A stretch of DNA of 21,942 nucleotides. It comes from a virus. Below, piece after piece: positions 1-21,380 of the stretch; the stretch's first letter is position 1; every line of letters starts with the position of its first letter. The DNA is taken from the IMG/VR virus record IMGVR_UViG_3300046170_000005, positions 1-21,942 of that record; one strand, written 5' to 3'. A program made the translations under genes and the position numbers. The notes below the pieces were generated by a model. That model worked only from the letters and a program-made list of their open reading frames with translations. It did no database searches and was not told the DNA's origin.

Positions 1-15
1 TATTTCTTCACTCAT
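1..15 (-). CDS. 5' end of an unidentified gene (partial)
   Basis: Only the first five codons (MSEEI) lie in the window. The ATG at 15-13 overlaps the helicase stop TGA (14-12) as ATGA. A strong Shine-Dalgarno, AAGGAG, lies about 8 bases upstream, inside the end of the helicase gene. The overlap and ribosome site make a real start likely. It would be the next gene of the leftward replication operon. Nothing can be said about function. Confidence 0.6.
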
Positions 16-1506
16 ATTGATAACTCCTTCATGTTGTATGATTTGGCTCTTGCTATATTACAATGAATAATAAAACCCATTGTTTCTTTTGATGTAGCAA
101 TTGGAAATACTTTTTTACTGTGCGGAAAATGGCCAAATTTTCTTTTGAAAGTATGACTGGCCCAACCTTCTTTAAAACCTTTTTGTTTAGCATAATACAA
201 TAGTTCAGCATAAAACTTTTGTTTATCATCTGTCTTAACTTTCATTTTAGGAAGTTCAATTAATCTACCTTGTTGTATCAATATAGCCTGTTCTTTTTTG
301 GTAGGTATAAAACTACAGTTAGGACATTCTGGTTGTTCTTTAGAAGGTTTATAAACTGTATCACATTGAACACACGTAAATGGTTGTTTCTCAATTGGTT
401 CAATTTTCTTTTTTTCTTTTTCTTTAATTTTAGATACGGTCAATTGCCAATCTGGTACATCTTCTGGAAACCCATGCTCATATACACATCCAGAATGATC
501 TATGATAAGTGTATCTTTTTTATTTTCAGCAGGTCTTAATGCTCTACCAACCATTTGCAGATACATAGAATAAGATTTAGTGGGCCTTGCTATAATTACA
601 CATGATATTTTAGGTTGATCCCAACCTTCTGTTAGTACCATGCAATTAGATAAAACTTTAATTTTATCATCTTGTAAATCTTGTAATACTTTTTCACGTT
701 CTATTTCTGGCATCTCACCATCTATGTGACCCGCAGGAATACCATTTTGTTTAAATATATTTGTAATGTATTTAGAATGTTTGATAGACGTACCAAACAC
801 AACAGTAGGTCTATTCTCACCATATTTGATCCAATGAGTTACAATATCACCAACTAATTTAGGTGTATTCATTCTAGTGTCTAATGCTTTTTTTTCATAG
901 TCACCTGCCATGATACGAATGTTTTGTAAGTCTGGTATTGATGGGGCAACTATTCTATTAGGTACTAAGTAACCTTTTTCAGTTAGTTCTTTAATCGTAC
1001 CACAATTGACTAATTCCTGATAAATATTACCAAGACCACGCCCATCATTTCTACATGGTGTTGCAGTTAAACCAATTACCCATGCTTCTGGATATGTATT
1101 AATTAAATCTTGGAATGATTTAGATGTACTTCTGTGGGCCTCATCCAATATAATTACATCAGCTTGTGGTTTAACAAAATCATCATTGTCTTTTCTTGCT
1201 GAAAATGTTTGAACACTTGCTACCTGTACATCAGAATAAATACTACCAGACTTACCTGCCATAATAACTCCATGTTTAATTTCAAAGTCAGCAAGTTTTC
1301 TACTACATTGCATAACAAGTTCACGTCTGTGCGCCACAAACATTCCAAATCTATTATTTTTAACCAAGCCTTCCATCATAGAACAAGCAATAACTGTTTT
1401 ACCGCTACCTGTAGGGGCAACTAATAATATTCTTTTTTTACCTTCTCTAAAATGTTGTCGTATATCTTCAATTGCTTTTTTTTTGATAATCTCTCAATAA
1501 GTTCAT
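12..1506 (-). CDS. SF2 DNA helicase (DEAH-type, SSL2/type III restriction-like), frameshifted near its start
   Basis: ATP-dependent superfamily 2 helicase, probably acting with the primase encoded just upstream at the phage replication fork. The start is the ATG at 1506-1504, overlapping the primase stop as TAATG, with GGAGAAG about 6 bases upstream. It begins MNLLRDYQKK, a typical Q-motif. The frame then breaks in a run of nine A (minus strand, 1484-1476). With one A removed the protein is 497 aa: Walker A TGSGKT at 32-37, DEAH at 121-124, the motif VI arginine finger QMVGRALR in the second RecA domain, and a C-terminal zinc ribbon of two Cys pairs (378/381 and 394/397). Without the correction the longest open frame starts at 1379 and lacks the Q-motif and Walker A, so it could not be active. 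The break is either a sequencing or assembly insertion, transcriptional slippage on A9, or a real mutation. The fold assignment is secure; the exact substrate is not. Confidence 0.88.
1476..1484 (-). other. Homopolymer A9 at the helicase frameshift
   Basis: Nine A in the coding strand follow TAT-C. Eight would give Q-K-K-A-I-E-D in one frame with the Walker A region. Nine throws translation to TGA a few codons later. Runs like this are both slippage-prone and the commonest place for sequencing indels. Confidence 0.75.
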
Positions 1507-2324
1507 TAGTATCTTCTCCATATATCGTTTAGTTGAAACATAACTTCGTTTAAATTTTCTGGTGGTACACATGAGTTTGCAAATTCAATAGCTTCACCTT
1601 TTGCATAGTCGTAACTTTCACCACGTTTTTTTATAGCTATTAAAATTTTAACTAACTGTGCATGACGTTCACCTGCATTGATACCGTAACGAAGTGTGCC
1701 TGTGTATTTACCTTTATAAGTTGATGGTGTGTAATCCATCTTAATAGTTTTTTGCTCTGGCCTTTTTAATTCCAAACCTTCTTTAATTTCTTTCATAGTG
1801 TAAGGCATATCAGTTGTACATTGAATTATTTTTACAGGATATGGATTTTTTTTATGGTGATAAAAACCTGCAACTCTCATAATTCTAGGCAAATCTTTTA
1901 CAACAGGGTCAGAATTAAATTTAGATGCCAATGCTTGTTGATACAAAGTAAAACTTTCTAAAGGCATATCTTTTACTAACCAATAACAATGGTATTTTTT
2001 TGGCGAAGTATTTACAATTAGATTAGGTGGAATATTAAAACTATCTGGTAATGGTGTACCATCTAAATCTATAAACACAGCCCTAATCTTTTGTATGTTT
2101 TTAGTTGTACGACCAAGACCATTAGTTTCATTTACTGTAAAATATATACCCGCACCTTTACTGTTAAGTTCAGCCAATTCGTGAAAGTGTACTTTTATAC
2201 TTCCGTGCAATTGTTTTATTAATCTTTTGTTTAGGCCCTTATCATCAAATGTTTGGAATGAATGATGTTTACCAAAATAATCAAGAAACATACTGTAATG
2301 AGAATTTTCGTTAAAACTACTCAC
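1506..2324 (-). CDS. RepB-type (archaeo-eukaryotic-like) DNA primase
   Basis: 272-aa protein resembling the RepB-like AEP primases of phages and plasmids, which make primers at an origin. What is visible: a D-x-D metal pair in FIDLDG (D86, D88), the second catalytic patch SPKKYHCYW with S107 and H112, and the conserved DLPRIMRVAGFYHHK segment (144-158), which corresponds to the family's D-x-x-R-x-x-R-x-P-G region. It starts with GTG at 2324, overlapping the preceding stop TAG by eight bases, and its own stop overlaps the helicase ATG as TAATG. Primase and helicase are therefore probably translated together. No helicase domain is fused to it, unlike large D5-type primase-helicases; the neighbour supplies that. 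Naming beyond 'AEP/RepB-like primase' is inference. Confidence 0.82.
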   Translation of the reverse strand: MSSFNENSHYSMFLDYFGKHHSFQTFDDKGLNKRLIKQLHGSIKVHFHELAELNSKGAGIYFTVNETNGLGRTTKNIQKIRAVFIDLDGTPLPDSFNIPPNLIVNTSPKKYHCYWLVKDMPLESFTLYQQALASKFNSDPVVKDLPRIMRVAGFYHHKKNPYPVKIIQCTTDMPYTMKEIKEGLELKRPEQKTIKMDYTPSTYKGKYTGTLRYGINAGERHAQLVKILIAIKKRGESYDYAKGEAIEFANSCVPPENLNEVMFQLNDIWRRY

Positions 2325-2520
2325 AACGATAACCCAAAACTAAATAACCCAGTTTAGTATAATGACCTGCTCTCATATCATCAGTTTCTTCTCTGTATTC
2401 TAATTTTTTTAAAATAGCATTGCCATATTTAAAACAATCTACGTTTTCTTTTTTAGGCATTGTTATTTCAGTTAGATTGCAAGTAGCGCAAGTTAAAATA
2501 AAAAATATTATTTTTGTCAC
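2317..2520 (-). CDS. Small hypothetical protein with hydrophobic N-terminus
   Basis: 67-aa protein of unknown function. The start is placed at the GTG at 2520-2518 because it forms a GTGA overlap with the DUF1376 stop and has AGGAG 5 bases upstream. An upstream ATG in the same frame at 2550 would overlap the neighbour by 34 bases and is less likely. The N-terminus (KIIFFILTCATCN) is a short hydrophobic stretch with two Cys, like a signal peptide or lipoprotein-type leader. The rest is charged and ends GYLVLGYRCE. It sits between replication genes, where a secreted or membrane-anchored mini-protein is unexpected; a superinfection-exclusion or membrane-tethering role is possible but untested. 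Confidence 0.6.
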   Translation of the reverse strand: MTKIIFFILTCATCNLTEITMPKKENVDCFKYGNAILKKLEYREETDDMRAGHYTKLGYLVLGYRCE

Positions 2521-2912
2521 TTGCTCTCCTCTAAACTTTCTTCCCCCCATCTAATTTTAGCACCTAACTTACCTGCTACTACTTTTTTTTTTCTATTTTT
2601 AATTTGTTCCTTACGTTCAGCTTCAGCTTGAATACATATTAAATATTTTTTATTATCTTTACCTTTTACTTCTTCAAATAAATGTTTAATTTTTGGTAAA
2701 ATTTTTTCAATTTTTTGTAATCTACATCCACACATTTTAGCAATTGTTTCATTATCAAAAGGTATTTGATATCCCCTCCATGCATGGCAAAATAATAAAA
2801 TATATGCACCTTGTTCTTCTAAAGATAGTTTCAATCTATTTGGATCACTTATCCAATCACTTGCATAAAATTGAAACGCAGGTGATTGTTCGTCTGTCAT
2901 TGATTTTCTCAT
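2517..2912 (-). CDS. DUF1376 (YdaU-like) replication-associated protein
   Basis: 131-aa protein with the DUF1376 signature at its N-terminus: PAFQFYASDWISDPN, followed by a helical segment SLEEQGAYILLFCHAW. DUF1376 proteins are found beside phage and prophage replication genes and are thought to help replication initiation, though biochemistry is thin. The C-terminus is a highly basic helix (ERKEQIKNRKKKVVAGKLGAK) that could bind DNA. The ATG at 2912 has AAGGA 8-9 bases upstream and a promoter with a perfect -35 box about 55 bp upstream. It is the first gene of the DUF1376, small protein, primase, helicase operon. The tandem dyad repeats upstream (3044-3097) make it a candidate initiator or origin-linked protein; that link is inference. 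Confidence 0.75.
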   Translation of the reverse strand: MRKSMTDEQSPAFQFYASDWISDPNRLKLSLEEQGAYILLFCHAWRGYQIPFDNETIAKMCGCRLQKIEKILPKIKHLFEEVKGKDNKKYLICIQAEAERKEQIKNRKKKVVAGKLGAKIRWGEESLEESK

Positions 2913-2942
2913 ACTATAAATTCCTTGAGTTTAGTTAATTTT

Positions 2943-2971
2943 GTTTTAAACCAAAAAGAAATGGGTGTCAA
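2943..2971 (-). promoter_or_regulatory. Sigma70-type promoter for the replication operon
   Basis: On the minus strand a perfect -35 TTGACA (2971-2966) is followed after 17 bases by TAAAAC (2948-2943) as -10. The predicted start near 2936 leaves a leader of about 24 bases carrying AAGGA before the DUF1376 ATG. The 11-bp dyad repeats begin about 75 bp upstream, a position suited to activation or to origin function. Confidence 0.6.
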
Positions 2972-2993
2972 TAGGGGTATCTTGTGTGCAGTT

Positions 2994-3029
2994 GAAAGTG
3001 AAGATGAAGATGAAGGTGAAGGTGAAGGG
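2994..3029 (+). repeat. Six tandem purine-rich hexamers
   Basis: Six consecutive 6-bp units: GAAAGT, GAAGAT twice, GAAGGT twice, GAAGGG. The plus strand is almost all purine with a T at each unit end; the minus strand is pyrimidine-rich. It lies between the dyad repeats and the replication promoter, in DNA with no convincing gene. It may be part of an origin or simply a slippage-derived microsatellite. Confidence 0.8.
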
Positions 3030-3043
3030 CTATTTTTTGCCAT

Positions 3044-3097
3044 TAGCAAAACGATAGCACTTTTTAGCAGAACTATAGCGGTGCTATAGCGGTGCTA
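3044..3097. repeat. Iteron-like array of 11-bp dyad units (candidate origin or operators)
   Basis: Five units starting at 3044, 3055, 3065, 3076 and 3087, each beginning TAGC. The last two are identical, TAGCGGTGCTA, an imperfect-centre palindrome (TAGC-3-GCTA). The third is TAGCAGAACTA; the first two are more diverged. The spacing of 10-11 bp is one helical turn, so bound proteins would sit on one face. An A+T-rich stretch follows (3096-3120). Tandem iterons beside initiator and primase genes are the classic layout of an origin; operators for the neighbouring Cro-like protein are the main alternative. Confidence 0.65.
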
Positions 3098-3122
3098 TAA
3101 AAAATTGTTGAAAAATAAAGGG

Positions 3123-3174
3123 GTATGAGGCGGAAAACTAAACTTAGAGAGAGAAAGAAAAAACCGCCCCATAC
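3123..3174 (-). terminator. Long hairpin, possible terminator of the regulator operon
   Basis: Arms 3123-3133 and 3164-3174 are complementary over 11 bp. The single mismatch in plus-strand RNA becomes a G-U pair in minus-strand RNA, so the full stem forms only in the leftward transcript. The loop is about 30 bases and polypyrimidine in that RNA. After the stem the transcript reads CCCCTTTATTTTT, a weak U-rich tail. It fits a terminator or attenuator between the regulator gene and the replication operon. The long loop makes this uncertain. Confidence 0.45.
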
Positions 3175-3209: not shown

Positions 3210-3230
3210 TACGCCTACCTTACAGGCGCA
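3210..3230 (-). other. Hairpin spanning the regulator gene's stop codon
   Basis: Arms 3210-3217 and 3223-3230 form an 8-bp stem with a 5-base loop in minus-strand RNA, with two G-U pairs that do not form in plus-strand RNA. The TAG stop of the helix-turn-helix gene lies in the 3' arm. No U-tract follows, so an RNA-stability or processing element is more likely than a terminator. Confidence 0.45.
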
Positions 3231-3424
3231 ATTTGTAAATCTGGTCTAATATATTCTATATCAAAATCACCAAGTTTTGCAATCTGATATGCTCTAAAAG
3301 GTGGTATTACTTTCCATTTAGATACAGCAGGATGTGAAATACCCAACATTCTAGCTAAATTTTTACCACCGTATTGATTAACGATTTCTTTTTTTCGTTC
3401 CATTGCTATTTTAAGATTGCTCAT
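3215..3424 (-). CDS. Cro/YdaS-like helix-turn-helix regulator
   Basis: 69-aa DNA-binding protein. Residues 19-38 (GGKNLARMLGISHPAVSKWK) form a helix-turn-helix of the Cro/YdaS type, with the typical 'GI-S-AVSKW' recognition helix and a following IPPFRAYQIAKL helix, as in Cro-like repressors where the Trp is followed by a Pro-containing turn. Such small proteins act as dimers on palindromic operators. The start at 3424 overlaps the upstream gene by 14 bases and has no clear ribosome site, so translation is likely coupled; an alternative ATG is seven codons in. Palindromic 11-bp repeats downstream (3044-3097) and the dyad at the divergent promoter are its natural candidate targets. Whether it controls lysogeny is unknown, since no integrase is in the window. 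Confidence 0.78.
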   Translation of the reverse strand: MSNLKIAMERKKEIVNQYGGKNLARMLGISHPAVSKWKVIPPFRAYQIAKLGDFDIEYIRPDLQIAPVR

Positions 3425-3630: not shown

Positions 3631-3658
3631 CTTATACATTTTTATTAACATATGTCAA
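3631..3658 (-). promoter_or_regulatory. Leftward sigma70 promoter, probably giving a leaderless mRNA
   Basis: Minus strand: perfect -35 TTGACA (3658-3653), 16-base spacer, -10 TATAAG (3636-3631). The expected start is at about 3624, directly at the ATG (3623-3621). This is the best-scoring promoter by eye in the window. Confidence 0.7.
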
Positions 3659-3663
3659 TTTAT

Positions 3664-3692
3664 TTGACTTTGGTTAATTACTGTGAAATAAC
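3664..3692 (+). promoter_or_regulatory. Rightward promoter, back-to-back with the leftward one
   Basis: TTGACT at 3664-3669 is a good -35 for the plus-strand operon. The -10 is weaker (AATAAC or AAATAA at 3686-3692, preceded by TGTG). This -35 and the leftward one form an inverted repeat, GTCAA-5-TTGAC (3654-3668), so two polymerases could not bind together and a repressor dimer on the dyad would affect both. The rest of the 110-bp gap holds only the AAGGAC ribosome site of the next gene. Confidence 0.5.
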
Positions 3693-5496: not shown

Positions 5497-5571
5497 ATGG
5501 ATTACAGATTTACAGCAATATTAATAATACTTATGTGTTTATTGGCTTTTTTAGGAGGCCCAGCGACATGA
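5497..5571 (+). CDS. 24-aa single-span membrane mini-protein
   Basis: Tiny frame encoding MDYRFTAILIILMCLLAFLG followed by GPAT: a short polar start and one hydrophobic span. A perfect AGGAGG lies at 5489-5494, only two bases from the ATG, closer than usual, which is the main doubt. The stop overlaps the next ATG as ATGA, and the stretch GGAGGC inside its last codons serves as ribosome site for that next gene. No homologue recognised. The 5460-5496 gap otherwise holds only an A+T-rich GATAAAAT that could be a weak -10. Confidence 0.5.
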   Translation: MDYRFTAILIILMCLLAFLGGPAT

Positions 5572-5708
5572 TTGATAGGTTTTTATTAAAATTTTTTGGT
5601 GGTCTGGATAATATATTTTCATTTTTAGAAACATACTCAATTAAATTTTCTGTTTGGTTATGGCAATCAAGAGTAAAGATATTAAGAAGAAAGAGAAAAA
5701 AGAAATGA
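5568..5708 (+). CDS. 46-aa conserved-type mini-protein
   Basis: Encodes a 46-aa protein starting MIDRFLLKFFGGLDNIFSFL and ending in a strongly basic tail (ILRRKRKKK). An amphipathic or membrane-associated helix followed by a positive tail suggests membrane-surface or nucleic-acid contact. AGGAGG is 9 bases upstream of the ATG, a good site. It overlaps its neighbours by ATGA at both ends. It resembles the small 'FGGLDN' proteins I recall from marine phages, whose function is unknown. Confidence 0.65.
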   Translation: MIDRFLLKFFGGLDNIFSFLETYSIKFSVWLWQSRVKILRRKRKKK

Positions 5709-5869
5709 GAGATACAAAAGTATTAGAGCAATTTAAAAAGCATACAGAAAAAAAACTTAAAGAGATGAATGTATTTAAACTTTTAAAAAAAGAAGTAAAT
5801 CATGGTGCTAATGGTACACAAAATTATGTAATTAAAAAAGGTATTAATAAAGGTAAAATTGCTAAATGA
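5705..5869 (+). CDS. 54-aa basic hypothetical protein
   Basis: Lysine-rich protein (MRDTKVLEQFKKHTEKKLKE at the start). The ATG at 5705 is chosen because it makes an ATGA overlap with the previous stop and follows a purine-rich AGAGAA stretch. In-frame starts further upstream (5654 TTG, 5660 ATG) would overlap the previous gene by about 50 bases. The C-terminus, NYVIKKGINKGKIAK, is also basic. Function unknown; nucleic-acid binding is possible from charge alone. Confidence 0.55.
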   Translation: MRDTKVLEQFKKHTEKKLKEMNVFKLLKKEVNHGANGTQNYVIKKGINKGKIAK

Positions 5870-6054
5870 AACGACAACACAACACAGCTATGATTGCTTT
5901 ACTTGGTACAATTCTTTTAGGTTTATCTACTTATGTATTGATAACTATTGTAGAATTACAAGTTCATGTTGGTATGCTTACTGAAGAAATAATGTCTGTA
6001 GATAAACAAATAGGTAGAATTTATAATCATATGGATAGGTTAGCTAATGACTAA
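5866..6054 (+). CDS. 62-aa membrane protein with cytoplasmic or periplasmic coiled coil
   Basis: Short basic N-terminus (MKRQHNTA), one transmembrane segment (MIALLGTILLGLSTYVLITI, residues 9-28), then an amphipathic helix with repeated I/M/L (ELQVHVGMLTEEIMSVDKQI). This is a common shape for phage lysis-associated or virion-associated small proteins. ATGA overlap with the previous gene; 8-base overlap with the next. It may be part of the lysis cassette that ends with the endolysin, but no family was recognised. Confidence 0.7.
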   Translation: MKRQHNTAMIALLGTILLGLSTYVLITIVELQVHVGMLTEEIMSVDKQIGRIYNHMDRLAND

Positions 6055-14626: not shown

Positions 14627-17600
14627 TTATTCTTCTATTTTATCAGAATTTTCTTCTTTAATAAAGTTAATAGGATATGTATTATCAGTTTTTTCTATAA
14701 ACTCAACTAACTTCATAATCATAATTGCTTGTTTTTTACTGTCTGTTTCAGTTAAAAAATCTTGTAACAATACAGTTCCACCAGCCATTTGAGATAATCT
14801 GTCAATTAATAATTTATTAGTTTTTAAACTTTCACTTCTTGCTAATAATGCCATTTTATGTTTATTTGTTAATGGTTCACCTGTAGTTAAATTTACAATA
14901 GCTTCTTTAAAATCAAGTGTAACTTGAGCATTTTCTTTTTCGTATTGTTGTAATCCACCTTCAGAATTTTCCATATATCCTACTATTGGATTATTACCAA
15001 TTTTTACAAATCTATTAAGTATTCTACCTACTACTGGCATATCAAGCATTTCTTCTAATTCTGAAGATATTTCTTCAAAGTTATTGCTTTTAAATTTATA
15101 TAAACCTTGACCAGAATAAGTATTAAAGAACCATTTTAATAATTCTTTGTTTTTTCTAGCATCATCTGCTTTATCAGTTGTTTTATCAATTGCAGTTGTA
15201 CCTCTAAAATCATCATATGGAGTAGTACCATTCATCCAACCAATAACATCACCAAATAAACTAAATACTGGGTTCATAGAAGGTAAACCAGAACTACCTA
15301 AATAACCAAACAAATCAGCAGGTGTTTCAAATGTACCTGTCTTTCCATCATCACCAATACTCATTGCTTTGTATAAAAATCCATTAATTAATCTAGATGT
15401 TTCGTCTTGTGGTATTCTTAAATATACTGGTCTTCCATCTTGTGTTTCACCTAAAACAATTGGAATGTAATTTATTTTATCCCAATCAGATATACCGTAT
15501 TTATAAACCATACCTAACGAAGCACCAAATAATCCTACTTCCATCATTTTTTGTAAAATTTTAGGCATTACGTTATAAGCTATAAACTTACCACCAACTG
15601 ATGCAGGGTCTTCTCTAAACCTAGTTATATCTGCTCTCCAACCTTCTTTAAATGCATTAGAATATAAATATAAATTATTAGTAAATGCATTTAATCTACC
15701 TTGTCTTAAAAAGTTTGGTGATCCTACTTCCGATTGTATTCTTAACATCATTTCTTTATCATTCATTTTTAAATCACCTCTTTTTATTGCATCTCTTAAA
15801 TACATAGTTCCTGCAATTTTAGGTGTTCTTTCAAACATTCTAGCAAAGTTACCTAGTGTAGAAAATAAATGACCAAACGTATCATTCCAAAATTTATCAA
15901 ATCCTTTTTTCTTTTGCATATCACCAAGTAATCTTTCAAGCATATATGTGTCTGGATCAAGACCCTTCATTAATGCTTTACTACCTGCTTGTCCTCTATA
16001 TCCTTCATTCATAGAGATTAAAAAACCTTCACTTTCCATCCATCTAGTAAGTTCAGTACCATCTTTAAAAATAGATTGGTATGCAGGTTTAACTGCTTTA
16101 AAATAATATTTAAACAATGAGTTTTTACCCTTTACCAGCAATATCAATATATCTAGCATTAGGTAGTAGTTTAACTGATCTGTTTAAATCTCTAGCTAAG
16201 TTGATTGGCCAGAAAGCAGGATTATATTCTGTAAACATTTTTCTAAATACATCACCTGTTCCTGTCATAATTTTGTACATCATCATTGTACCGTTTGGAT
16301 TTTCTTTAAATGATTGTGCTACAAATTTATTAACGTGCCAATGTTGCATCTTACCATCTTTCATGTAACTAAATTGTTCCATGCCTTTAGCTGGTTTTTC
16401 TAATTTACCTTCTCCAATAAATTTAGGTTTGTAAATAACTCTATCTGGTCTATATGCTTCTCCAGATTTTTTACCATATGTTTCCATCCAATTTTTGTTT
16501 TCTTTTAACCATTTAACAGTTAAAGCCATTGTTCTATGTCTTTTGGCTTCAACCATTAACAACATATCTTTTTCAAGTGTTGCATTAAATACATTCATAA
16601 TGTCATCAAATGTACCTTTTGATCCTTTTAAAAATCTTGTAGCGCTTGAGTTTGGCCCGTATTTTTCTATACGTTCTAACAAATATTTTCTTACGTTAAA
16701 TGTAACGTATTCTTTATTGTTTTCTAATTTAGCAATTAGTTCTTTGTCATACATTCCACTTTCTTTTAATTCTGGAATAACCATTTCTTGTCTAACTTTA
16801 TAAAATTCATTTGTTAGTTCAAATAGTTGTGGATGTAATTTTACATAATAATCATATATTTCTTTTGCAGTTCTATTACCTAATACTTTTGCTAAGTCTG
16901 GATTGACTTTCATAATACCTAGTGAATTAACTAATTTGTTTCTTTGTGAACTTTCAGCTATGTTTCTTAAAAATAACATAGTACCAATATCAATACTGTT
17001 GTATCCCAATTCTTCTGCTGGTTTTACAACTTTACGCATCATATCATCTGTGTATCTTTTTAATTTAGCATGACGGTATCTGTAGTTTTCAATTGACCAG
17101 TTTAATTCTTTTGCTAATGGACTATGCCATCTATCACTACCAGTTCCTCTAAATCTTCTATATATCCAGAAAAAGTTATCAATTGCTTCAGTACCAAGAA
17201 CATCAGCTAAATCTGGTTTGTAATCTTTTTCTATTCTTTTAATTGTAGCTTCATTAGTTTCTCTAAACATATTACCAATGTCAGATACTACTTTACTTAA
17301 TCTTTTATCTGTTCCAGATTTTAAATCTATTTGTATTCTTTCCCAGTTTGCTCTTACTTCTGGTCTAGCATCCATATAATGCATCCACATTTCCCATGTT
17401 CTAGGTGCATTGTTTTTAACCCATTGTGGTCTTAGCATAAATGCCATCATAAAATCTGCCATTAGTTCTCTAGGGCCATCTCTATATTCTGTGTATTTTT
17501 GAGATGCGGCTCTATCAAAAGGTTTCCATTTTGCAGATAAATTTTTAAGTTCTGTAGTAATCCATTCTTTATTAACTAATCCTCTTTCTTTAATTATTCT

Positions 17601-20600
17601 TTCAAATTTATCTTTAAAGATTTTGTATGCTTCATTAGTCAATCTGCTGTCACTAGGTTTACCATTAATTTTATCTGCAATAGCTTTCATATGATGTGAC
17701 ATTAGACCCTTCATTGCATCTTTAACTACTAATTTTTTAACTTCAGCAGGTAGTTTTACAAATGCATTATAAAAGTCTGGATTAATCTTTTCTCTAGCAG
17801 ATGCATCATTAAATATTTTAAGTATAGTATCTGGTGTAATTTCTAACTGTTTAATTTCTGCGTTAGTTTCTTTTTCTTTAGCTTTTGCTTCTTTTATAGC
17901 GGCACTTTTTATAGCTTCTATTTCTTTAGCACTTAATGGTTTTGCACCTTCATTTTTACCATCAATCCATTTATTCATATAACCTTTTAAAGCGGCTATA
18001 GAACCTAATATATTACCTCTTGATAATGTAGCATTTGGTAAATAATCAATTAAATGTCCTAATTCATGTGCAAACGTCATTAAAAATTGTTCTGGGTTTT
18101 TTTGTAATGCTTCGTTGATAACTATTCTAGGTGATTTCTTTCCTTTAAATTGGAAATAACCATTTAGACCTGTTGGTAAGTTATTTAGTTCTGGTGATTT
18201 TTTAACAAATGCTTTGTATAATTCTACAAGATCAATCATATCTAAACCTCTTGATGAATTAAATAGACCCTTCCATTGAGCCGCATTATTTGCGTAGTCT
18301 GCTGGTAAATTCTTTTCTTGTGTAAATATATCTCTAGGTATTCCCCAATTATCACCATCTTTACTACTGTTTACTCTATCAAAATACACACCATCTTTTG
18401 TTTTAAAAGTATCAAAATAATTAGTAGCTTGTGCATCTATTTCACCATTAATTTTTTCACCTTTTATAGTTGCAAGTATTTTACCGCTTTCTGGATGCAA
18501 CATCATAATTACTTGTTTTGCATCACTACCCATCATATCAGCAGTTTTTATTGTTCCTTTATCATTAAATCTAATTAATTGTTCATAAGCTGATCTTGGT
18601 ATAGCAACATTTTCATTACCTACTCTAACAATTAATTGTTCAACATTACCTTTTAAACCAAAAATTACTTCAACTTTTTTAGCAGTAGAAGATAATCCAT
18701 TACGTTCTTTGTTAATTAATTCTTTAGCATTTTGGTATTCTGTTTTTAATTCTTTATTTTCTTTTAATCGTTTTGTTATTTCTGGATAAAATTTAGATTG
18801 AACAGTAATTGTTTCATTAGCAATTGTTTTACCATCTTTTGTAATAATTTTTATAGCACTACCTGTATCTCTAACAGCTAAGTCAGCATTGCTTTTAAAT
18901 GTACTTTCTGTATAAATATTTTGTTTATTTTTTGTAACCTCAACAACATTAACATTAAATTCACCATTAGATTTTCTTTCAACAAATGATGTATCTTTAG
19001 CAAAATTTATATTAATTTTGTCACCTTCTATTTTTATTTCAACAAGTTTGTTTGGTGCTTTTCTAACTTCACTTTCTAATACTGGTATTTTAACACCATT
19101 TGTTTTTTCAATTATAACAACTTTTTCATTACCAATTGTTTCTTTACCAATTACTCTACCAACTTCTGTAGAAGATGTAGATACATTAACAATTTCATTG
19201 TTTTTAAATTTTGGTGGAGGTAGTAATTTAATATTAGATTGTTTTTCTAATCCTTCTACAACTGTTTTAGCACCTTGTTCATAAAGAGTTGGCATTTGAC
19301 CATTTTCTATTTGATGTCTAACAGTTACATCTTTTTCCATGTCTTTAATTACATCTCTAGGATGTCTGCCGTATTCAGTATAAATGTCTTTAAACATCTT
19401 CATACCTCGTATTGATCCATGTATTCCAAAAACCAAGACCGTAGCATGAGCAAAATCTCTCATTGTAGGTACATGACCTTCTAATGCCGCACCTAATGTA
19501 GTCATCACAGCTATTTCTGATGAAAGTCTAGCTGTTGTACTACCTGTTAATGCTTTAACTTTTGCACCAACACCAAATGTAGCACCACCAATTACTGCTG
19601 TTTTACCAGCAACTATTGCTGTTTTTTTATCCATGTAATGACTTAAAAATTCTGGAAATGATCCTACAAAATTATCTTCTATTGCTCTCATATAAGATGA
19701 TCTAATTACTTCTGGTAATGCAAAACCACCAGCACCACATATAATAGGTAACGCAGGTGCGGCTGTACCTGCACTTCCAACTAAAGCTGTACCACCTGCC
19801 GCAAAACAACCTGCCGCCATAAATGGTAAATCATTTACTAACGTAACAGCAGATGCAACAATATCTTTATCAAATCTTTGTTCTTGATACATAAATATTC
19901 TTTGTATTGCTTCTTTAGGATCAGCGTTAGGATCATCAATAAATACTTGATAATATCTATCTAGCATACCATTTACAGATTGCTCGTAACCATTTGTAAA
20001 TACGTTGTAATAACCTTTACCACCAAAAGCATTTAATACTTTATCACCAACATTTGCAGGTAATTTTTCTAATGCTTTAGTTACAATATTATCATTACCC
20101 CAATAAGCTAGTTGTGCAGTTTCATAATCATATTGATCTGTACCAAATTTATCAAAATATTTATCAGTTCTGTCTTTTAATTCTTGATTATCAACAAGTC
20201 TGTATTCTTGCCCTACACCTGCTTCTATGTCTTCTACTTTTTCATAATCAGCATGATGATATTCAATGTATAATTTTTTCATTGCATCAACATCACCATT
20301 AGCAATTGCTTTAATTAATTGATCTGAACCAGCACGATTAAACTTTTCACTTTTAGGTATTTCTAAAAAATTAGCTAATGCTAATGCTTTTTGTTCATCT
20401 GGTGATAATCTTGTAGGGTCTTCATGTTTAAATGCTTCTGTTACCCAATAAGGTAATTCATAATCTTTATTTACTTTTCTATTTACGTTTATAAATCTAT
20501 TTAAAGCAGTTCTAAAACCGCTTTTTCTAAATTGAAATAAACCACCAGCACTACCATCTGCATTATAAATATTTCTATTATTACTTTCTAAGGCTGAAAC

Positions 20601-21380
20601 AAATGACATGAACTCATTAAGATACATAATTTGTAAATCATTAAATTCATAATTTTGTTTAGCATATTCTAACATTGTTTTTGAATTTGCACCTGTAGAA
20701 AAAGCTGTATGTAATACATTAACAGGTTCGTTAGCTTTTCTTTCATCTTCAGCTTGTTCGTAATTTGTATCAAAAAGATATCTACCTGTTTCTTTGTTAA
20801 AACCAAAATTACCTGCAATAGCATCTTTAGCTTGTGCGTTTTCTAGTAATTTAACTTGCTCATCATTTAATGCACTTTCTGCTAAAGTTAAATCAACACC
20901 ACCTTTAAATTTTTCTTTTTCATATGCTATGTTTGGATAATATTTTTCCATCCAATTATCTATAAATCCTACTCTACCATTATCATCTTCTTTAAATAAT
21001 TTATATGCTTCATCTATTTTATTAAGAATTTTAGCTTGATCTTTATTTTTTAATAAATCAAATGTAGTATTTTTAAGATTATATTTACCGTCAGATGTTT
21101 TGTTAGATTTAATAGTGTCAGCATTTTCATCATCTTGTAATTTCATTAATGATGTTTTTTTACCTAAAGGCATTTGATTTTCTGTAATAGCAGTTGTATC
21201 TTCCTGCATATCAGTATCTAATAATGAATTAGATTTAATAGGTACTATACCGTAACTATTGTATATTTCTTTTTTATTAAATCCTGCTTTTTCTAAAAGA
21301 GGTACTTGGGTATCAACATACGATTTTATTGTGTCTGTATCAAACCCAGCTTGTGATAATTGTAAAGCTGTAATTTTCAT
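14627..21380 (-). CDS. Giant ejected internal virion protein: transglycosylase, zinc peptidase, polyvalent-type C-terminus (frameshifted)
   Basis: Predicted 2250-aa protein that would be injected with the DNA. As read it is two frames: 21380-16125 (1751 aa) and a continuation to 14627. The first ends AGKG then TAA; with one G removed from GGG (16130-16128) it continues A-G-K-G-K-N-S-L-F-K without a break, and the total is in frame. Domains: lytic-transglycosylase-like region about 255-350 with catalytic candidate E265 (SALESNN) and ADGSAGGLFQF; hydrophobic stretch about 510-580 (FMAAGCFAAGG onward) for membrane channel formation; charged middle; HELGH zinc-binding motif at 1105-1109 (gluzincin-like peptidase); then large helical parts including 'FTEYNPAFWPINLARDLNRS', which resembles a polyvalent-protein associated domain (LPD38-type). 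T7 gp16 is the functional analogue. Domain names beyond the two enzyme motifs are by recall. Confidence 0.78.

Follow-up and report, generated by a model that had tools for sequence, protein, structure and literature searches.

A probable replication origin in a SAR11-type phage, composed of 11-bp iterons and a CTNCAN hexamer tract associated with a DUF1376 gene

The window, i.e. the whole stretch of 21,942 nucleotides that was analysed, harbors between a cro-like gene and a DUF1376 gene an interval which is probably a theta-type replication origin. In our reading, the DUF1376 protein would bind the iterons of this interval, probably capture a single strand of the adjacent CTNCAN tract and open the duplex, whereupon the replisome would be loaded. 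An iteron origin beside initiator and primase genes had been proposed in the initial annotation of this DNA. The comparative data supported this core idea, while the palindromic repeat unit, the minor role given to the hexamers and the GC-skew test that it proposed did not stand. What was found are tandem, phased direct repeats, kept in relatives and located beside a candidate initiator gene, as expected of an iteron origin. No replication origin seems to be on record for the SAR11 phages of this group, and DUF1376 formally has no function assigned to it.

The window is a piece of the genome of a marine SAR11-type phage; almost all of its distant DNA matches were Pelagibacter (SAR11) phages. 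Among isolates, the nearest is Pelagibacter phage EXVC032P Baldr (39,463 bp), the only cultured phage and only record of the phage collection in which tblastn disclosed the same DUF1376 protein. The annotation of Baldr lists a primase and a helicase and no DNA polymerase, so that use of the host DNA polymerase is likely. On the minus strand of the window, the elements are arranged in the order cro, hairpin, 11-bp repeats, dyad, seven CTNCAN hexamers, CAAGATA, promoter, TTAAC element and DUF1376, whose start lies at 2912; primase and helicase follow on the same strand. The features are:

3215..3424, minus strand: gene of a Cro-like repressor, preceding the array (P22_Cro, 44.7 bits, cut-off 30.2)
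3125..3172, minus strand: conserved hairpin separating cro from the iterons, its loop rich in pyrimidines (compensatory change)
3046..3099, minus strand: five tandem 11-bp iterons, TATAGCACCGC, TATAGCACCGC, TATAGTTCTGC, TAAAAAGTGC (10 bp) and TATCGTTTTGC (TRF, chain test)
3035..3051, no strand assigned: TTTTGCTAATGGCAAAA, a 17-bp dyad where the iterons adjoin the hexamers, overlapping the last iteron (comparison of 48 relatives)
2986..3027, minus strand: hexamer tract CTTCAC CTTCAC CTTCAT CTTCAT CTTCAC TTTCAA CTGCAC (TRF, shuffles, relatives)
2978..2984, minus strand: CAAGATA, the conserved end of the hexamer tract (relatives)
2943..2971, minus strand: sigma-70-type promoter TTGACA-17-TAAAAC of the DUF1376-primase-helicase operon (48/49 relatives)
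2925..2938, minus strand: TTAACTAAACTCAA, operator-like and a candidate site for Cro, next to the promoter on its downstream side (related elements in 33/49 relatives)
2517..2912, minus strand: DUF1376 protein, 131 aa, candidate winged-helix initiator (Pfam PF07120, 32.3 bits, cut-off 30.1; PHROG primosomal protein)
1506..2324, minus strand: RepB-type primase (PF16793, 38.2 bits, cut-off 24.3; PHROG DNA primase)
12..1499, minus strand: SF2 DNA helicase, frameshifted near 1476-1484 (PHROG DNA helicase, 4.5e-89)

At the frameshift site (minus strand) the window reads A9, while the near-identical loci L005, L006 and L007 have A8 and other relatives read AAAAGAAAG. The frameshift is likely an assembly or sequencing error in the window contig.

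The five TAGC units reported initially do exist on the plus strand, beginning at 3044, 3055, 3065, 3076 and 3087 with spacings of 11, 10, 11 and 11 bp. When the window was shuffled 200 times with dinucleotides preserved, chains of TAGC at 10-11 bp reached three units at most, versus the five observed. The palindrome TAGCGGTGCTA is likewise present in two exact copies (3076-3086 and 3087-3097). As the repeat unit, however, TAGC-3-GCTA had to be given up, since relatives retain the 11-bp spacing and not the palindrome. By this comparison, the conserved iteron is best described as an 11-bp direct repeat, reading TATAGCACCGC on the minus strand. Among 49 dereplicated relatives (representatives less than 85% identical), unit spacings of 11, 22 and 33 bp occurred 53, 21 and 10 times, respectively, compared to about zero in shuffles. 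Of 48 relatives, 24 have a dyad of the GGCAAA type and 16 one of the GCGATTT type (e.g., AAATCGCATATGCGATTT); its arms co-vary in some relatives and are asymmetric in others. DnaA boxes were rejected as an alternative type of site, as the window contains no perfect TTWTNCACA and its one-mismatch sites numbered below the shuffle mean.

The purine hexamer repeat was also recovered, with six copies at 2993-3028 according to TRF and seven in-register YTNCAN units on the minus strand from 3027 to 2986. It had been treated as a minor component, yet no other element of the interval proved as conserved or as widespread. Its consensus C-T-n-C-A-n can be read as trinucleotides with a C at each third base. 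The longest run in 200 dinucleotide-preserving shuffles was four hexamers, against seven in the window. In 39 of 46 relatives the tract measures 31, 37, 43 or 49 nt, i.e. its length changes by whole hexamers. A search of bacterial genomes for the array together with CAAGATA gave no match, and thus this exact form was encountered only in the phage lineage.

The array proved to be linked to DUF1376 almost exclusively. It is conserved in approximately 110 distinct relatives, and a primase search yielded 78 viral loci, of which those spanning the interval retained the whole order of elements. Using DNA only (three hexamers plus CAAGATA), 100 loci were fetched from the viral collection; the Cro-like gene lay upstream in 99 and DUF1376 downstream in 98 of them. 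Of the exceptions, L132 ends before the expected DUF1376 start and L103 is a chance match. Near-complete relatives possess a single multi-hexamer array beside DUF1376 in 15 of 16 cases. The array accompanies DUF1376 through gene insertion, inversion and loss: insertions separate the two by up to about 660 bp; in one genome (G280) cro, array and DUF1376 are jointly inverted with respect to the primase, the array staying next to DUF1376; in another (G279, locus L041) cro and primase are present, while DUF1376 and the array are both absent. From the inversion and the joint loss we concluded that the array belongs to DUF1376 rather than to the primase. The genome lacking both must use another initiator and origin.

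To the DUF1376 protein itself a winged-helix fold with a long C-terminal helix was assigned by prediction. The AlphaFold2 model, based on an alignment of 34 loci, reached a mean pLDDT of 84.9. The top Foldseek matches were the PDB entries 4pql, 4pta, 4pt7 and 5kbj (E 1.8e-3, probability 1.00, TM about 0.45), which we take to be staphylococcal plasmid RepA; the titles of the matched entries name an initiator and a Rep-DNA complex. The N-terminal domain of RepA was also the top match by VIA-align (Z 8.1), although a Z near 8 can reflect the common winged-helix arrangement and the RepA match scores are modest. By sequence alone no relative of DUF1376 was found in the PDB, and PF04492 (Phage_rep_O) was absent among the Pfam matches of the window protein. 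The SAR11-phage and prophage groups of DUF1376 proteins were aligned to each other by hhalign with 100% probability (1e-49).

The main competitor of an origin is an array with a purely transcriptional role, in which Cro or DUF1376 would use the iterons as operators and the hexamers would act as an upstream element of the replication operon's promoter. The promoter postulated in the initial annotation is indeed located there, on the minus strand, with TTGACA at 2971-2966, a 17-bp spacer and TAAAAC at 2948-2943. Downstream of the array, TTGAC and a -10-like hexamer separated by 16-18 bp were found in 48 of 49 dereplicated relatives. This conserved promoter, the operator-like TTAAC elements following it and the Cro-like gene upstream of the array all fit regulation. 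Palindromic elements of the TTAAC/GTTAA type reside at 3642-3680, a divergent promoter region, as well as at 2925-2938, and recur in relatives. They are possible Cro operators, and the Cro-like protein more probably uses these separate sites than the iterons. Against a purely transcriptional array speak the insertions of up to about 660 bp mentioned above, and the distance from CAAGATA to the promoter, which varies while the tract length is quantised. Furthermore, in unrelated phages and prophages iterons and tract are situated well inside the DUF1376 gene rather than at a promoter. We therefore regard this explanation as unlikely, though it is the best of the alternatives to an origin. The hairpin at 3125-3172, for which both-sided, pair-keeping changes affected four of nine predicted pairs (11 sequences), is a candidate terminator or priming site.

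An A+T-rich tract had been counted among the origin elements as well. An easily melted stretch does exist, yet it corresponds to the promoter and leader (2901-2960) and not to the hexamer tract, whose stability is above the genome average (z about -1.2). Not being A+T-rich, the hexamer tract is no classical unwinding element. A stable tract with an easily melted stretch beyond it would rather suit opening driven by a protein than passive melting. The proposed GC-skew check was carried out and cannot discriminate the position of an origin. Almost all genes of Baldr, a complete relative, show a positive skew on their own coding strand; since skew thus follows gene direction, it was rejected as evidence on the origin.

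A looser hexamer pattern without CAAGATA revealed at least 69 new loci in the viral collection. Among those listed were further SAR11-type relatives, and most were unrelated phages carrying the tract in the DUF1376 gene. In these phages and in prophages the tract lies just past the DUF1376 N-terminal domain and encodes a Ser-rich linker. Because a hexamer search selects on the motif, DUF1376 was also sampled by protein only, using an FQFYP-type motif, so that this sample represents one branch of DUF1376. Runs of at least three CTNCAN hexamers were present in 25 of the 80 genome loci, against one with the reversed and none with the reverse-complement control, and in 53 of 80 viral loci (0 in both controls). 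In an HMM-based sample of 274 genomes, both strong DUF1376 matches carried the tract, which was absent at the four Phage_rep_O loci of this sample; the whole-genome search with Pfam PF07120 was too insensitive and missed genomes known to carry DUF1376. As tract carriers, ydaU of the E. coli Rac prophage, Pseudanabaena phage Pam1 and pSK41 rep were rejected, none of the three having a CTNCAN tract; the tract is thus not common to all DUF1376 genes. In the DUF1376 gene of Pam1 (L416), iteron-like repeats of 12-13 bp, CACCTAATAGG, precede a short repeat of another kind, AGAAGCC, at the same linker position.

These coding tracts raise the question of whether the motif is nothing but a Ser/Pro-rich low-complexity linker or a short leader peptide devoid of function at the DNA level. 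In the window too, an open frame spans the tract. ATG-started frames through the arrays of 48 SAR11-phage relatives fell, however, into SP (15), LH (14) and TNC (10) frames, none common to the relatives, and the SP frame changes at first codon positions. Peptide coding of the tract in the SAR11 phages was rejected on these grounds, and the CTNCAN motif consequently exists as both non-coding and coding DNA. Where it is coding, we kept the protein and resampled synonymous codons from the same locus. The tract exceeded this null in 34 of 49 dereplicated genes at p<0.01 and in 42 at p<0.05, over a GC range of 0.35-0.69; the remaining 15 genes, about a third of those sampled, were not significant at p<0.01. 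Codon choice in the tract hence departs from synonymous usage. Moreover, amino acids vary while the DNA pattern persists, for instance as TPSFSSSTSITSS in Hymenobacter. In view of these data, a mere peptide-coding role of the tract is very improbable. According to record titles, the carriers significant at p<0.01 include Proteobacteria, Acidobacteria, Bacteroidota (Hymenobacter, Pontibacter), Verrucomicrobia, Planctomycetes and Omnitrophota, i.e. at least six bacterial phyla, and some have a GC content of 60-69%. Upstream of 60 non-redundant tracts, autocorrelation peaked at 12, 24 and 36 bp (z 15.2, 17.5 and 8.9, respectively). The 12-bp iterons differ among groups (GGTTAASC, CACCAAAG, ATCGATAAC, C-runs), the tract being unchanged.

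For the origin that we favor, the following course is conceivable. The winged-helix DUF1376 protein would be produced from the adjacent promoter and would bind the phased 11-bp iterons in their double-stranded state. The resulting complex would engage the neighboring CTNCAN tract, one strand of which would most likely be captured three bases at a time, with an invariant C or G in every step. The duplex would then open towards the A+T-rich promoter side, allowing primase, helicase and host DNA polymerase to load.

Known systems share parts of this layout. In lambda and Stx phages, the lambdoid origin sits in gene O (PMC7466680). Similar to it, the array would combine tandem iterons for a phage initiator with a distinct tract where unwinding starts, and in prophage DUF1376 cases the tract resides inside the initiator gene. 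Unlike it, there is no Phage_rep_O match, the iterons of 11-12 bp are not of the O type, and the tract, which in the window is located outside the gene, consists of CTNCAN units instead of A+T-rich DNA. RepA of plasmid pSK41, a DnaD-like protein, binds Rep boxes in the center of its own rep gene (PMC5703833). The N-terminal domain of RepA is the best fold match of DUF1376 and the central Rep boxes resemble the position of the tract-bearing region in prophages, but RepA_N plasmids disclose no sequence match. RK2-type origins, in which plasmid Rep binds one strand of repeated 13-mers in the DUE (PMC4081077), also combine iterons, a repeated tract and a winged-helix Rep protein, the latter being predicted here; the RK2 13-mers, however, lie in an A+T-rich DUE. 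With RSF1010-type replicons the window has the RepB-family primase in common. Those replicons employ a hexameric RepA helicase, the initiator RepC and ssi hairpins; found here are an SF2 helicase, DUF1376 as candidate initiator and the conserved hairpin.

A parallel in layout is provided by DnaA-boxes with DnaA-trios (PMC8287927) and by the DnaD recognition element (PMC10201434), where double-strand sites adjoin a tract with three-base periodicity, as predicted here for the iterons and hexamers. The motif differs from the DnaA-trio and the candidate initiator is not DnaA. We tentatively suggest, with somewhat less than even confidence, that in the CTNCAN tract phages have a widespread equivalent of the DnaA-trio: an opening code read in three-base steps by DUF1376 initiators, with iterons that give specificity and vary freely, usually located inside the initiator gene and outside it in SAR11 phages. 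The recurrence of the tract beside related candidate initiator genes in viruses and prophages of many phyla hints at a common mode of DNA opening that has apparently not been described; in the open-access literature no published description of the tract was found. It also suggests that unrelated winged-helix initiators may have converged on a DnaA-trio-like, strand-specific opening. Since the conserved tract can be separated from the iterons, it allows origins of phages and prophages with DUF1376 to be tested for directly by sequence.

A partition site or a packaging site (pac) is the least probable explanation of all, for although tandem 11-bp direct repeats near a promoter recall parC-type centromeres, no partition genes were detected among the examined window neighbors or in the Baldr annotation, the Baldr terminase gene is far from the array, and the linkage is to DUF1376.

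No tRNA or Rfam element was found in the window. Outside the replication region, a short stretch of small genes at 5571-6000 is shared, at a DNA identity of 70-83%, with many pelagiphages that differ elsewhere, which suggests a mobile cassette. On the minus strand, an ORF of 1751 aa (16125-21380) with a weak metalloprotease PHROG match probably encodes an ejection or virion protein.
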